From Verrucomicrobiales bacterium (GTDB lineage: Bacteria > Verrucomicrobiota > Verrucomicrobiia > Limisphaerales > JAYPXF01): 64,000 nucleotides of DNA. Below are positions 50,148 through 55,399 of this stretch, in pieces. The notes beneath the pieces are model-generated. The model was not told the origin of the DNA and ran no database searches. It worked only from the letters and a program-made list of their open reading frames with translations. Every line of letters begins with the position of its first letter. Within the stretch, counting starts at the first letter, position 1. Location of the stretch: positions 22,282-86,281 of the forward strand of contig PBAL01000047.1 in NCBI GenBank assembly GCA_002715965.1, in the 5' to 3' direction. The position numbers were made by a program, and so were the translations under genes.

Positions 50148-51686
50148 TCAGTTGTAGTTGGAGTGCTTCGGCTTGGGGCCGGTGGGGGGCTTGACGCCGT
50201 GGGAGAGCATGACCTTGGTAATGGCGTCGATGGTCTCGAAGGAAGGTTTGAAGTTTCCGGGCCGGTAGCCCTCAGCAATGAGGAGCGGGGTGCGCTTCTT
50301 GCGATTGTTGGTGTTCCAGATCTTGATCTTGTGACCGGCCTTGTCGAGGTAATGCACGACGGCGGGGATGTTCTTGTAGGCGGCCCCGTGCATGGCAGTC
50401 TCCCCATTTTTGTTCACGGTGTTTACGTCTGCGCCAAGAGAAACGAGATATTTCACCGCGGCCAGGCACTCGGCTTCGTTGCCGGCTTCTTCTTCCGGTG
50501 CGCTGCTGCCGATTCCCGCAGCCATCAGCAAAGGAGTGGTGCCGTTCTCGTTGGCGAGCATCGGGTCAGCGCCGAGTTCCACGAGGAGCTTCATGTATTC
50601 CAGATCTGCGCGATCAGCAGCCATGAAGAACGGGGTGGCACCGACCTCGGAAGCTCTTGCGCCTCCAGCCCGGCGTCCACGCTTCAGACGGAAGTTGACG
50701 TCGGCTCCATGTTTCACCAATTCGCGGATGAATTGCGTGCTGTTGCGCCGTCCGGAGCCTTGGGGTTCCGGGTCGCCCGCGGCAGATTCGCCGATATCGG
50801 GGCGACGAATCCAGGTCATCGAATGAAGCAACGTGTAGCCCGTCCGCGCGTCGTTCGGATTTGCGCCGAGATTCAGAAGTTCAACCGCCAGATCGTAGTG
50901 ACCGTTCTCAGCCGCAAGCAGTAATGGGCTGGTCCCTTTCTTCACATTCTTGCCGCGCGTGTTGTCCGGATTCATAGCACTGTTGATATCCGCGCCAGCC
51001 TTGAGAAGGAGTCGGACAACATCCGTCTTGCCCTCGCGGATGGCGAAACAGAAGGCATTGAAGCCCGACTCCTCCAGCGGGGCAAGAAAGTCGGCCTTGG
51101 CAGCAAGGAGTGTATCCACGATCTCCGTGTGCCCTTCGGCGGCCGCCCACATGATCGCGGTCTGCCCTCGGCGTTCCTTCGCATTGACGTTGGCTCCGGC
51201 CTTGAGCAGCGCATTGACCGCACTGATCTTGCCGGTGCGTGACGCCGTCATGAGCGCGGTCTCTCCTCCCGGGATGGACCCGTTCGGATCAGCGCCTGCG
51301 TCAACGAGTGCTTGAACGAATTCGCCATTGCCGTTCTGACTGGCGAGATAAAGCGGGGTGATTCCGTAGCGGTTCTTGTCGCTGTGATCTGCTCCACGTT
51401 TCAGGAGTTCTCTGCCGAGCTTGGTATTGTCGTGATAGGCAGCCCAATGAAGCGCTATCATTCCGTCAACCTGCCGGGCGTTGATATCGAGTTTGCCTTT
51501 GAGGAGTTTGGCGATTCGAATCGGATCGTTTGCTTCAACCGCATCGGCGAGTGGAGCTTTGCCGGCAGACGCGTTCGGGGTGACAGTGCAGCAGAAGAGG
51601 AATGTAGCAGCGAGCGTGAGCGAGCAGGCTACGATACATTTCGAATCTGCTCGCTCACGCTCGCTGCTACGACCGTTCGTTTGCAT
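50148..51686 (-). CDS. Ankyrin-repeat protein
   Basis: Many ankyrin units, e.g. DGMIALHWAAYHDNTKLGRELLKRGAD, YGITPLYLASQNGNGEFVQALVDAGADPN. Confidence 0.95.
   Translation of the reverse strand: MQTNGRSSERERADSKCIVACSLTLAATFLFCCTVTPNASAGKAPLADAVEANDPIRIAKLLKGKLDINARQVDGMIALHWAAYHDNTKLGRELLKRGADHSDKNRYGITPLYLASQNGNGEFVQALVDAGADPNGSIPGGETALMTASRTGKISAVNALLKAGANVNAKERRGQTAIMWAAAEGHTEIVDTLLAAKADFLAPLEESGFNAFCFAIREGKTDVVRLLLKAGADINSAMNPDNTRGKNVKKGTSPLLLAAENGHYDLAVELLNLGANPNDARTGYTLLHSMTWIRRPDIGESAAGDPEPQGSGRRNSTQFIRELVKHGADVNFRLKRGRRAGGARASEVGATPFFMAADRADLEYMKLLVELGADPMLANENGTTPLLMAAGIGSSAPEEEAGNEAECLAAVKYLVSLGADVNTVNKNGETAMHGAAYKNIPAVVHYLDKAGHKIKIWNTNNRKKRTPLLIAEGYRPGNFKPSFETIDAITKVMLSHGVKPPTGPKPKHSNYN
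51604..51670. repeat. Perfect 24-bp inverted repeat inside the ankyrin gene 5' end
   Basis: GTAGCAGCGAGCGTGAGCGAGCAG (51604-51627), 19-bp spacer, CTGCTCGCTCACGCTCGCTGCTAC (51647-51670). Confidence 0.97.
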
Positions 51687-51692
51687 GGCGCC

Positions 51693-53039
51693 TCAGATTG
51701 AGAGTGTATCGAACAGTCCGTCAATTTTGCCCGTGCTGTCCCCGAAGGAGTCGATCTTCACACCAACCTTGTCCAGGAGCGTGAGATGAAGATTGGCGAG
51801 CGGAGTGGGATTATCGTAACGGATGTGGCGATTGCCCTTCATTCCGCCTGTGGCACCACCTGCGACGATGATTGGGAGATTGGTGTGGTCATGGACATTC
51901 GGATTGCCGATACCGCTTCCATAGAGAATCAACATGCTGTCGAGTAGTGATCCGTTGCCTTCCTTCGTGTCCTTCAGCTTCTCAAGATATTCGGCGAAGA
52001 GCGAAACGTGGAAGGCGTTGATCTTTGCCATGCGGGCAACCTTGTCGGGATTGTCCCCATGGTGAGAAAGCGGATGGTGGGCATCAGGCACTCCGATCTC
52101 GGGATAAGTGCGATTGCTCGTTTCACGCGCGAGTTGGAAGGTGCTGATGCGCGTAACGTCGCCTTGGTAGGCAAGCAATTGCAGGTCGAACATCAGCCGC
52201 GCATGATCGGCATAGGCAGCGGGGACACCGGTCGGACGATCCATGTCGGGAAGGGGATTGTCCTGGGCATCCGCTTCGGCCTTTTCGATGCGGCGTTCCA
52301 CTTCGCGGATGGAATCGAGATACCCGGATACGCGGGCGCGATCACTGGCATTGAGATCGCGCTGGAGGCGTTTCATTTCCGAAGCGATTGAATCCAGCAG
52401 GCTGGCACGTTTGCGAAGTGATGCCTTTCGTTCCTCCGACGTGCCGCCTTCGCCAAAGAGACTTTCGAACACCAGCCGCGGATGAGCTTCCGCCGGCAAA
52501 GGGGTGGTCGGCGAGGACCAGGAGAGATTGTTGTGATAAACGCAGGCGTAACCGTTGTCGCAGATACCAACGGTCTGCATGAGATCCATGGCCAGCTCGA
52601 GGGATGGCAGTTGAGTTCCCTGGCCGATCTGCTTGGCCGCGACTTGGTCGGCGGTTGTGCCGAGGTAGTAGTCCGTGCTTTCGGTGACCTTGGCGCGCGC
52701 GGCGCTGAGGAATGAGGAGTTCGATGTCGCATGCGAACCGGGATAGGCCGGACGCAGTTCCATGTTGGTGAAGACCGTGAGCTTGTCCTTCACCGGTTCC
52801 AGCGAATCCAGGATCGGGGAAAGTTCGTCGAGGTTCTTCTCGCTCTTCGGAGTCCAGCGCGATTGATCGCAGCCCATCGGCATGAAGACATAGCCCAGTC
52901 GCTTGAGTTGGCCCGCCGGAGTTCGGCTTGCGGCCGTCGCGGCTGGAACCATTGCGTCGAGCAGCGGCAGCGCAAAGGACGCACCGACGCCCTTGAGCAT
53001 TGTTCGACGGGGAATGGATTTCTTCGTGATGAAATTCAT
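51693..53039 (-). CDS. DUF1552 domain-containing protein
   Basis: IPRRTMLKGVGASFALPLLDAMVPA; YLDSIREVERRIEKAE; paralog of 32470-33831. Confidence 0.93.
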   Translation of the reverse strand: MNFITKKSIPRRTMLKGVGASFALPLLDAMVPAATAASRTPAGQLKRLGYVFMPMGCDQSRWTPKSEKNLDELSPILDSLEPVKDKLTVFTNMELRPAYPGSHATSNSSFLSAARAKVTESTDYYLGTTADQVAAKQIGQGTQLPSLELAMDLMQTVGICDNGYACVYHNNLSWSSPTTPLPAEAHPRLVFESLFGEGGTSEERKASLRKRASLLDSIASEMKRLQRDLNASDRARVSGYLDSIREVERRIEKAEADAQDNPLPDMDRPTGVPAAYADHARLMFDLQLLAYQGDVTRISTFQLARETSNRTYPEIGVPDAHHPLSHHGDNPDKVARMAKINAFHVSLFAEYLEKLKDTKEGNGSLLDSMLILYGSGIGNPNVHDHTNLPIIVAGGATGGMKGNRHIRYDNPTPLANLHLTLLDKVGVKIDSFGDSTGKIDGLFDTLSI

Positions 53040-53041
53040 GA

Positions 53042-55399
53042 CTACTTGCCAGCTACTTTCTCACCATTTGCACGCGCGCGCATCTGAAAAGGAACGCTCT
53101 TTGCAATTCCAAGGATCACTGATGAGAATCGGAAATCATCCGCCTTGGCTTCGTGAACTATCCTGCGAATCGCGGACGCATCGTAAGGCTCAACTCCACG
53201 TCCAAGGGCAAAAACAAGAAGTTTTTCGCTCAGAGTGCGGACGAACAGCTCCGGCCGCTGAAGCAATCCTGCCTCCAGTTTCTCCACGCCGTCGAACACC
53301 TGCCCATCAGGAAGCCCACCGGAAGAATCAATTTCCCGGCCACTCTCAAACTTCCGCCATCGCCCCACCGCATCGTAGTTCTCCAAGGCAAAGCCGACTG
53401 GATCCATCGCGTCATGGCAACTCGCGCAAGCGGGATTCTTTCGATGCTCGGCAAGGCGATCGCGGATCGGAAGCCTTGCGTCGACCTTGTTGTCTTCCAA
53501 TGCGGGAACATCCGGAGGGGGCGGCTTGGGTGGCGTGCCAATGAAGTTGTCGAGCACCCAGTTACCGCGGATCACCGGTGAGGTCCGGGTCGCATAGGAC
53601 GTGACCGTCAAGATGCTGCCATGCCGCAACAACCCACCACGTCGATGCTCTGGATCAAGCGCAACACGTCGAAAGCGACTGCCAAAGATTCCGGGGATGT
53701 CGTAATGACGCGCGAGTCGGCCATTGAGGTAGGTGTAATTCGCGTTCAACAAGTCCAGCACGCTGCGGTCCTCGCGCAACACGCTTTCGATGAACATCTC
53801 GGTTTCCTGCCGAAACGCACGACGAAGGTTTTCATCGAAATCTGGAAACAAGCGCAGGTCTGGGGTCGAGGAATCGAGGTTGCGCAGGTGCAGCCACTGG
53901 TTGGCGAAGTTGTTGACCAGATTGCTCGAGCGTTCATCGGCCAACATGCGCCGGACCTGTTTTCCCAACACTCCCTCATCGCGAAGCTGATTGGCGATCG
54001 CGAGGTCAAGCAGTTCATCGTCAGGCAAACTGCTCCAAAGGAAAAATGACAGCCGACTTGCCAGTTCGAGATCACTGATTCGATAAGCGTTCTTCGAGGA
54101 GTCACTCGGATCGCGTTCCACTCGGAACAGAAACGCGGGATTCACCAGAATGGCCGACAACGCGCTCTCAATGCCTTTGTCGAACCCGCCTTCCTTTGCG
54201 CCTCCGCGATAGAACGCCATTGGCTGTTGCAGGTCTGCTTTGGCGATCGCCCGTCGATAGGCGCGCTTCATCAGGTTGGCGAGAACTGCTTCAGCAACTT
54301 GCTCTTCATCCAGACCATTCTCCGGCCGGCTAATGAAGATTTTCCTCCGGCTTGGCGTTGCACCCACACCCGTCGAAGTGAACGGACCGGTGATCGACAC
54401 ATAGTAGACAGCAGGATTCTTCCGCGGGTGTCGATGGAAGTTGAAACTGGCCTCAAAGGGCTGCCGCTTGTTCTCAAGCAATGATTGCGATTTCTGATGA
54501 AAGGCCGCGCCAACTTTGCGGGGGCCAGCCTTCACGAAAGTCTTCACCTTCAGGTGCTGGTCGATCTTGTCATGATCACGTTGTGGCTTGACCGAAAACT
54601 GCCTCACCAAAGCCCGATCCAAAAGCACGTCAATCTTGTGCTGCCCCCGCAGGCCTTCGACTTTCTCGTTGCGATCACGCATGAGTCGCACCTCGATCTC
54701 GTATTCACCATCCACGGGAAAGTTGTAGGGGACCACCAAACCACCGCGTGTCCCAATGGGTAATCCGGGCACATGCTTTTCCTGTGTATACGTCGCCGGC
54801 ACACGGAACGTAGCGCCATCCGGCCGTTTCAATGGCGAACCCACAGCCAACCTGCTGATCTTCCGGGCGGCCGTGATGTAACGATCCACCAACACCGGGG
54901 AAAGCGTGCCTACCGTGATGTTGTCGAAGCCGTGACTCTCCTCGTCCTGCGGTAGCAATGCAGCCGCGTCGATCTGAACACCCAGCAGATCGCGAATGGA
55001 GTTCTGATATTCCGTGCGGGTCAACCGTCGGAACGTGGGAACTCGACCCGGCTTGGGATCGGCTTTCGCACGTGCATCCAAACGGGCAACCAAAGCAGAA
55101 ATTGCCCGATCATACTGCTTCTCATTCGGCCGACGCTTGCGATTGGGCGGTGGCATTTGGCGGGCCCCCAGCCGACGAACCACGAGTTCCCACGTCGCGG
55201 AGTGTTTCGCCATGTCGTGCTCGAGAATGTTCTCCAGGTCCAGCCCACCCTTCTTCTCATCGGAACTGTGGCATCCCGTGCACCAGGCTTCCGCGAAATC
55301 GATGACGCTGTCTTCCAGCTGCTCCGCTGACAACGAAGTCGAAACCGCAAGCGCAACTGCCGCAATCAAGAGTCTCCAAAATCTCTCGCTAAGTGTCAT
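53042..55399 (-). CDS. DUF1592/DUF1588/DUF1587-type planctomycete cytochrome protein
   Basis: Heme motifs CTGCH and CASCH; FRRLTRTEYQNSIRDLLGV; LTVTSYATRTSPVIRGNWVLDNFIG. Confidence 0.93.
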   Translation of the reverse strand: MTLSERFWRLLIAAVALAVSTSLSAEQLEDSVIDFAEAWCTGCHSSDEKKGGLDLENILEHDMAKHSATWELVVRRLGARQMPPPNRKRRPNEKQYDRAISALVARLDARAKADPKPGRVPTFRRLTRTEYQNSIRDLLGVQIDAAALLPQDEESHGFDNITVGTLSPVLVDRYITAARKISRLAVGSPLKRPDGATFRVPATYTQEKHVPGLPIGTRGGLVVPYNFPVDGEYEIEVRLMRDRNEKVEGLRGQHKIDVLLDRALVRQFSVKPQRDHDKIDQHLKVKTFVKAGPRKVGAAFHQKSQSLLENKRQPFEASFNFHRHPRKNPAVYYVSITGPFTSTGVGATPSRRKIFISRPENGLDEEQVAEAVLANLMKRAYRRAIAKADLQQPMAFYRGGAKEGGFDKGIESALSAILVNPAFLFRVERDPSDSSKNAYRISDLELASRLSFFLWSSLPDDELLDLAIANQLRDEGVLGKQVRRMLADERSSNLVNNFANQWLHLRNLDSSTPDLRLFPDFDENLRRAFRQETEMFIESVLREDRSVLDLLNANYTYLNGRLARHYDIPGIFGSRFRRVALDPEHRRGGLLRHGSILTVTSYATRTSPVIRGNWVLDNFIGTPPKPPPPDVPALEDNKVDARLPIRDRLAEHRKNPACASCHDAMDPVGFALENYDAVGRWRKFESGREIDSSGGLPDGQVFDGVEKLEAGLLQRPELFVRTLSEKLLVFALGRGVEPYDASAIRRIVHEAKADDFRFSSVILGIAKSVPFQMRARANGEKVAGK

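Follow-up and report, generated by a model that had tools for sequence, protein, structure and literature searches.

We found that the perfect inverted repeat at the 5' end of an ankyrin-repeat gene in the window, the 64-kb stretch of DNA analysed in this study, is very likely (probability of about 0.85) a copy of a mobile element, REPIN-type and GTAG-footed, that needs a REP-associated tyrosine transposase (RAYT) to move and is read through in the ankyrin gene. RAYTs belong to the HUH enzymes and, guided by the GTAG foot, cut single-stranded DNA and rejoin it. In the scenario that we propose, a RAYT-dependent element would have entered the DNA 22 bp beyond the neighboring DUF1552 stop codon, at a point where the ankyrin gene already began. 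Survival of the gene could be explained by a net insertion that left the frame intact and by arms that carry no stop codon in two of their three reading frames. The N-terminus would thereby have grown by ~18–24 residues, and within the predicted signal peptide, the arms would now account for part of both the n-region (SSERERA) and the hydrophobic core (CSLTLAA).

The two 24-nt arms (positions 51604–51627 and 51647–51670) are 100% complementary, are separated by 19 nt, and lie wholly within the 5' end of the ankyrin coding sequence (50148–51686, minus strand), exactly as stated in a preliminary description of this DNA. The left arm, GTAGCAGCGAGCGTGAGCGAGCAG on the plus strand with its GTAG foot outward, encodes CSLTLAA on the minus strand, while the right arm, GTAGCAGCGAGCGTGAGCGAGCAG read on the minus strand, encodes SSERERA. 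The spacer (51628–51646), encoding DSKCIVA on the minus strand, shows no relationship to that of any of the other 29 paired copies in the genome. Within the window, the 21-nt core of the repeat is found in these two arms only, with an expectation of 0 in the shuffled window. Folding of the region as RNA gave −64 kcal/mol (z = −7.3), and the doublet as DNA forms one hairpin (−34.4 kcal/mol, z −10.9); a 24-nt arm by itself folds at −1.7 kcal/mol (z +0.8) and has no hairpin of its own.

The ankyrin gene encodes a 512-aa protein (Pfam Ank_2, 2.8e-57) with a predicted signal peptide, and the element lies within its N-terminal ~45 residues. Upstream on the minus strand are the DUF1552 (HXXSHH) gene (51693–53039; PF07586, 1e-93), whose stop codon lies 22 bp before the element, and the gene of a PSCyt1/PSD2-5 (DUF1592) protein (53042–55399; Pfam), the first in the gene triplet. 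The ATG start (51684–51686, minus strand) is located 16 nt upstream of the element and just downstream of a GAGG (51691–51694) that overlaps the DUF1552 stop codon. In G003, the ortholog has its start in the corresponding position, after its own DUF1552 stop. No in-frame ATG, GTG, or TTG follows the ATG at 51686 until residue 76, a position inside the ankyrin repeats, on which grounds we rejected a downstream start, one of the two conditions that would have refuted the preliminary reading. Ankyrin orthologs are 46–75% identical, with alignments mostly beginning at residue ~20–40, and the ortholog comparison that had been proposed revealed 45 residues ahead of the LxDA anchor in the window protein versus 21–27 in six orthologs. 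At the sequence level, the start site, the frame, and this longer N-terminus support translation through the element.

The N-terminus of the open reading frame reads MQTNGR-SSERERA-DSKCIVA-CSLTLAAT-FLFCCTVTPNASA, and the predicted leader is MQTNGR-SSERERA-DSKCIVA-CSLTLAA-TFLFCCTVTPNASA, signal peptides being called from hydropathy and an A-x-A motif, without a trained predictor. Arms, spacer, and host sequence all contribute to this leader, through which the protein would be exported. The preliminary description had the repeat encode the signal peptide, with the charged SSERERA n-region on one arm and the hydrophobic core on the other. While SSERERA was confirmed and the second arm does encode CSLTLAA(T), the predicted core is not confined to that arm and is composed of spacer (CIVA), arm (CSLTLAA), and host sequence (TFLFCCTV). 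The element would accordingly provide part, not the whole, of the predicted signal peptide. The hairpin in the mRNA begins at +17 counted from the ATG, roughly where an initiating ribosome ends on its downstream side; it may therefore tune translation but need not block it.

The same repeat is dispersed across the 6.08-Mb genome, where 69 copies of the 21-nt core (33 forward, 36 reverse; ≤3 mismatches) were detected, while a reversed-pattern control had 0 matches genome-wide under the same search. This abundance rules out a chance palindrome or a hairpin specific to one gene, and a CRISPR-like array is ruled out by copies that are dispersed instead of arrayed. Uniqueness of the repeat, which would have spoken against the preliminary reading, was thus not observed. 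The 69 cores form 46 sites, comprising 30 inverted pairs and 16 sites with one recognisable arm. Pairs measure 64–67 bp in 25 of 30 cases and have sharp GTAG/CTAC boundaries. Conservation sets in abruptly at GTAG, extends over 24 nt (GTAGCAGCGAGCGTGAGCGAGCAG, then usually A), and ends abruptly. At the outer end of the 60 paired arms, the G, T, A, and G of the foot are present in 58, 51, 55, and 57 arms, and the preceding base is T or C in 53, which is compatible with a cut-site preference. The core at ≤1 mismatch occurs in 3 of 384 genomes of the class, including that of the window; at ≤2 mismatches, it is missing from 56 of 57 relatives and present in one. The exact 24-mer was also found in other Verrucomicrobiales MAGs, though it is rare.

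According to a codon-usage gene model, 36 of the 46 sites are intergenic, 18 of these between convergent genes, and many intergenic sites are ≤30 bp from a stop codon, typically a few bases past it. The remaining 10 sites are mostly at gene ends or in misextended N-termini; four copies (L002, L004, L008, and L072) appear intragenic only through misannotated N-termini. At four sites (L027, L067, L071, and L074), the neighboring gene ends in frame on the TAG of GTAG, which supplies its stop codon. The window copy obeys the family rule, being located shortly past the DUF1552 stop where the next operon gene begins. A copy in a gene for a PSCyt1-WD40 protein (L005) likewise lies past the upstream stop and inside the start of the next gene, with a less certain start codon, and the copy at a GspJ-like prepilin gene (L009) is probably a third with this arrangement. 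The prepilin leader (L009:721–1755, minus strand) crosses the copy, and an ATG in the spacer could also be the start. These coding-looking copies all start 13–22 bp past the stop codon of the upstream gene. Location after a stop codon is a simpler rule than targeting of signal peptides, which we rejected as a rule. Given that most copies, including that of the window, are a few bases past a stop codon and that the next gene starts there, "co-option" need not imply selection for a signal peptide. What stands of the mobile palindrome co-opted as coding sequence, as first described, is a dispersed family with a copy read as coding; selection for the signal peptide is not required.

A further copy was found in the middle of menD in the genome G414 (L095; TIGR00173, 9e-83), where it is 68 bp long and in frame. 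Comparison with a 62% identical relative in G418 indicated that the menD linker is itself variable and holds a second palindromic repeat. This second repeat (CAACAGRGTNNGTTCNNNGAAC..ACCCTNTTG) adjoins GTAG arms in G414 (L095, ~1338, minus strand; L138:1450–1495; L089/L121) and is also within coding sequence, in menD and in an NRPS adenylation domain; the menD linker of G418 (L195) resembles it (TNQQGAFGEQTVLL, IQQGTFDELLP). Single arms in frame were observed as VAASVSK in the linker of an NRPS adenylation domain (G414, L138:1501–1521) and as VAASVSE in a RapA linker (G094, L099:1501–1521), the latter of which may be a chance match in a low-complexity linker and was left out of the evidence.

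The repeat family is linked to RAYT genes in related genomes. In the MAG JARGNG (G415), a 178-aa gene, P0002 (JARGNG010000118.1, L091), has tandem copies with the identical 24-mer on both sides. P0002 has a match of E 4e-12 to NF047646, the model for REP-associated tyrosine transposases, which falls short of the model's curated 80-bit cut-off, and one of 7.5e-4 to Pfam Y1_Tnp, just below cut-off; it also contains a PDHIHIL motif of the HUH type. By model and motif, P0002 qualifies as a Y1 HUH transposase of the REP-associated type, which would be predicted to cut single-stranded repeat DNA at a GTAG-guided site. In G002, the nearest genome of the same family and outside the genus, RAYTs with 44% identity have GTAGCAGCCGAGGTRACGAGGCTC on their flanks, which is clearly a sister repeat, and a P0002 relative in G416 is flanked by GTAGCGGAACTTGCCAAAA doublets. 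G002 has 13 Y1-type transposase matches (L141, L147, L152, and L155–L159), of which three, belonging to the P0002 clade, are near sister-family GTAG repeats; two of these three genes contain an internal stop codon. Given that the same 24-mer surrounds a RAYT in one MAG and a sister repeat surrounds related RAYTs in another, the element is, judged by its sequence context, of the REPIN type.

No P0002-clade RAYT was found in the genome of the window (92.7%-complete assembly), and therefore the family may be orphaned there, or the gene may be missing from the assembly. We infer that a RAYT transposed the element in this lineage. The only Y1/REP-type transposase in the assembly, P0003 (L083:5944–6621, minus strand; NF047646, 5e-17), is in a tightly packed operon between DUF1501-like and PSCyt1/PSD-type genes. 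P0003 (C16) was rejected as the mobilising enzyme, as neither GTAG-repeat copies nor inverted repeats were found near it and it matches P0002 at only E 0.016.

Arms and spacers of the family behaved differently. Arm changes among paired copies in the window's genome were one-sided in 100 cases and shared in 3, versus 2.4 expected by chance (asymmetry between arms, chi-square p 0.13), so that compensatory changes between the two hairpin sides were not above chance. Pairing is thus not maintained at each site, and the arms appear to decay independently, without selection for pairing. Among the 30 paired copies, spacers had no similarity beyond chance, including in the twelve copies with ≤2 arm changes. 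As a control for this test, RAYT-linked copies in G415 share spacer sequence with two of four dispersed copies, indicating that the whole unit was copied there. Duplication of whole units should leave parent–offspring pairs with similar spacers, of which we found 0 among 30. The 16 single-arm sites include intact arms and are no more decayed than paired arms, although detection thresholds differ between the two. These results suggest that spacers are not copied along with the arms. Possible alternatives are that the copies are old and their loops changed faster, and, for the in-frame fit, that small indels compensated.

Such observations bear on readings other than the one we favor. That the element is extragenic, with a wrongly annotated N-terminus and a hairpin acting as a 5' untranslated attenuator between the DUF1552 and ankyrin genes, would be in line with the many N-terminal REPs misannotated in other species (Di Nocera et al., 2013, PMC3733652) and with the four misannotated copies in the window's own genome, but we regard it as unlikely: a start at residue 76, the first available after the ATG at 51686, would lose the signal peptide and the first ankyrin segment, both of which are present in orthologs, and the GAGG is just upstream of that ATG. 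Less probable still are host-made structures, such as bidirectional terminators or mRNA 3'-end protectors, selected for their hairpin. They could explain the strength of the hairpin and the copies past stop codons and between convergent genes, but not readily arms whose changes are uncompensated and in which sequence is conserved, not pairing alone, 16 sites with one arm only, the lack of the repeat, at ≤2 mismatches, in nearly all relatives, or the RAYT linkage in other genomes.

A more serious, if still doubtful, alternative concerns how the element arose. A RAYT-type system might place a pair of inverted 24-nt GTAG arms on either side of a stretch of ~18 nt of host DNA. The spacer would then be the host's own earlier sequence, and each insertion, that in the ankyrin gene included, would always add 48 nt (16 codons, in frame). 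Spacers that are unrelated even at 0–2 changes in both arms, while arms decay freely, would fit this scheme, as would the intact single arms. Removing the 67-bp unit from the ankyrin gene shifts the frame and leaves no ATG, GTG, or TTG start in the ankyrin frame, while removing 2 × 24 nt keeps the frame and leaves the leader MQTNGHSKCIVAFLFCCTVTPNASA, with a hydrophobic core stronger than after removal of 66 bp; the 68-bp menD copy of G414 is likewise in frame. On the other hand, the spacers shared in G415 indicate whole-unit copying there, an empty site was not observed, small indels could have restored the frame, and spacers may be very old or fast-changing. Orthologous signal peptides are too divergent for an empty-site comparison of the spacer. 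If true, such placement would be a new way to make inverted repeats and would explain why the spacing is constant, why spacers are unrelated, why single arms can be perfect, and why reading frames are preserved. Insertion of a RAYT-dependent REPIN-type element, read through in the ankyrin gene, remains our preferred reading.

REPs within open reading frames are already known, Verrucomicrobia included, and the interest of this family therefore lies in the spacer that is not copied. Freely decaying arms beside never-shared spacers conflict with simple copying of whole REPINs, and the family, with its small RAYT, short arms, and large number of copies, is a compact system for investigating how REP doublets form, a question open in the literature. 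REPINs have been little described in this lineage, where the window copy would also be a clear case of a mobile hairpin that has become part of an operon protein's predicted export leader.

The preliminary description drew an analogy to Rickettsia palindromic elements, which holds in principle, as these too are palindromic repeats read in frame within unrelated proteins; the type of the present element is that of a REPIN or GTAG-REP with RAYT association in related genomes. Only a few of the 46 copies are coding here, and no transposase link is known for the Rickettsia elements. Compared by foot description only, the foot here is GTAG versus the CGTC class for intragenic repeats of R. conorii (PMC3733652). 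TIRYT/TIRtrons also combine a gene of RAYT type with inverted repeats that are not palindromic and that in part occur as dispersed dimers, but their repeats have been described as mostly unrelated to GTAG REPs, many with GGGGWSAS (PMC3733652; PMC6006769), whereas the arms here start with GTAG. Closer are the GTAG-tagged head-to-head REP dimers (Di Nocera et al., 2013, PMC3733652), which share the outward GTAG, inverted pairs, stop codons supplied by GTAG, and sites past genes, between convergent genes, and in some cases within open reading frames, including in the verrucomicrobium Opitutus terrae. Their monomers, however, have a 5–13 bp stem next to GTAG, absent from the arms described here, and their head-to-head dimers usually keep a conserved spacer. 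REPINs, or REP doublets (Bertels and Rainey, 2011, PMC3116915), resemble the element in their two inverted conserved arms, similar spacer length, dispersed and mostly extragenic distribution, folding of the whole unit into one hairpin, and RAYT linkage, the last observed here in related genomes. In contrast to the present family, each REP has an imperfect palindromic core, and in SBW25 REPINs, spacers show partial conservation and compensatory changes are frequent (PMC3116915). Strict REPIN membership fails on three points: an arm without its own hairpin, the lack of compensatory change, and no RAYT found in the genome that carries the repeat. The most fitting place for the element is with the REPIN type, as a GTAG-footed variant whose arms form a hairpin only as a pair.
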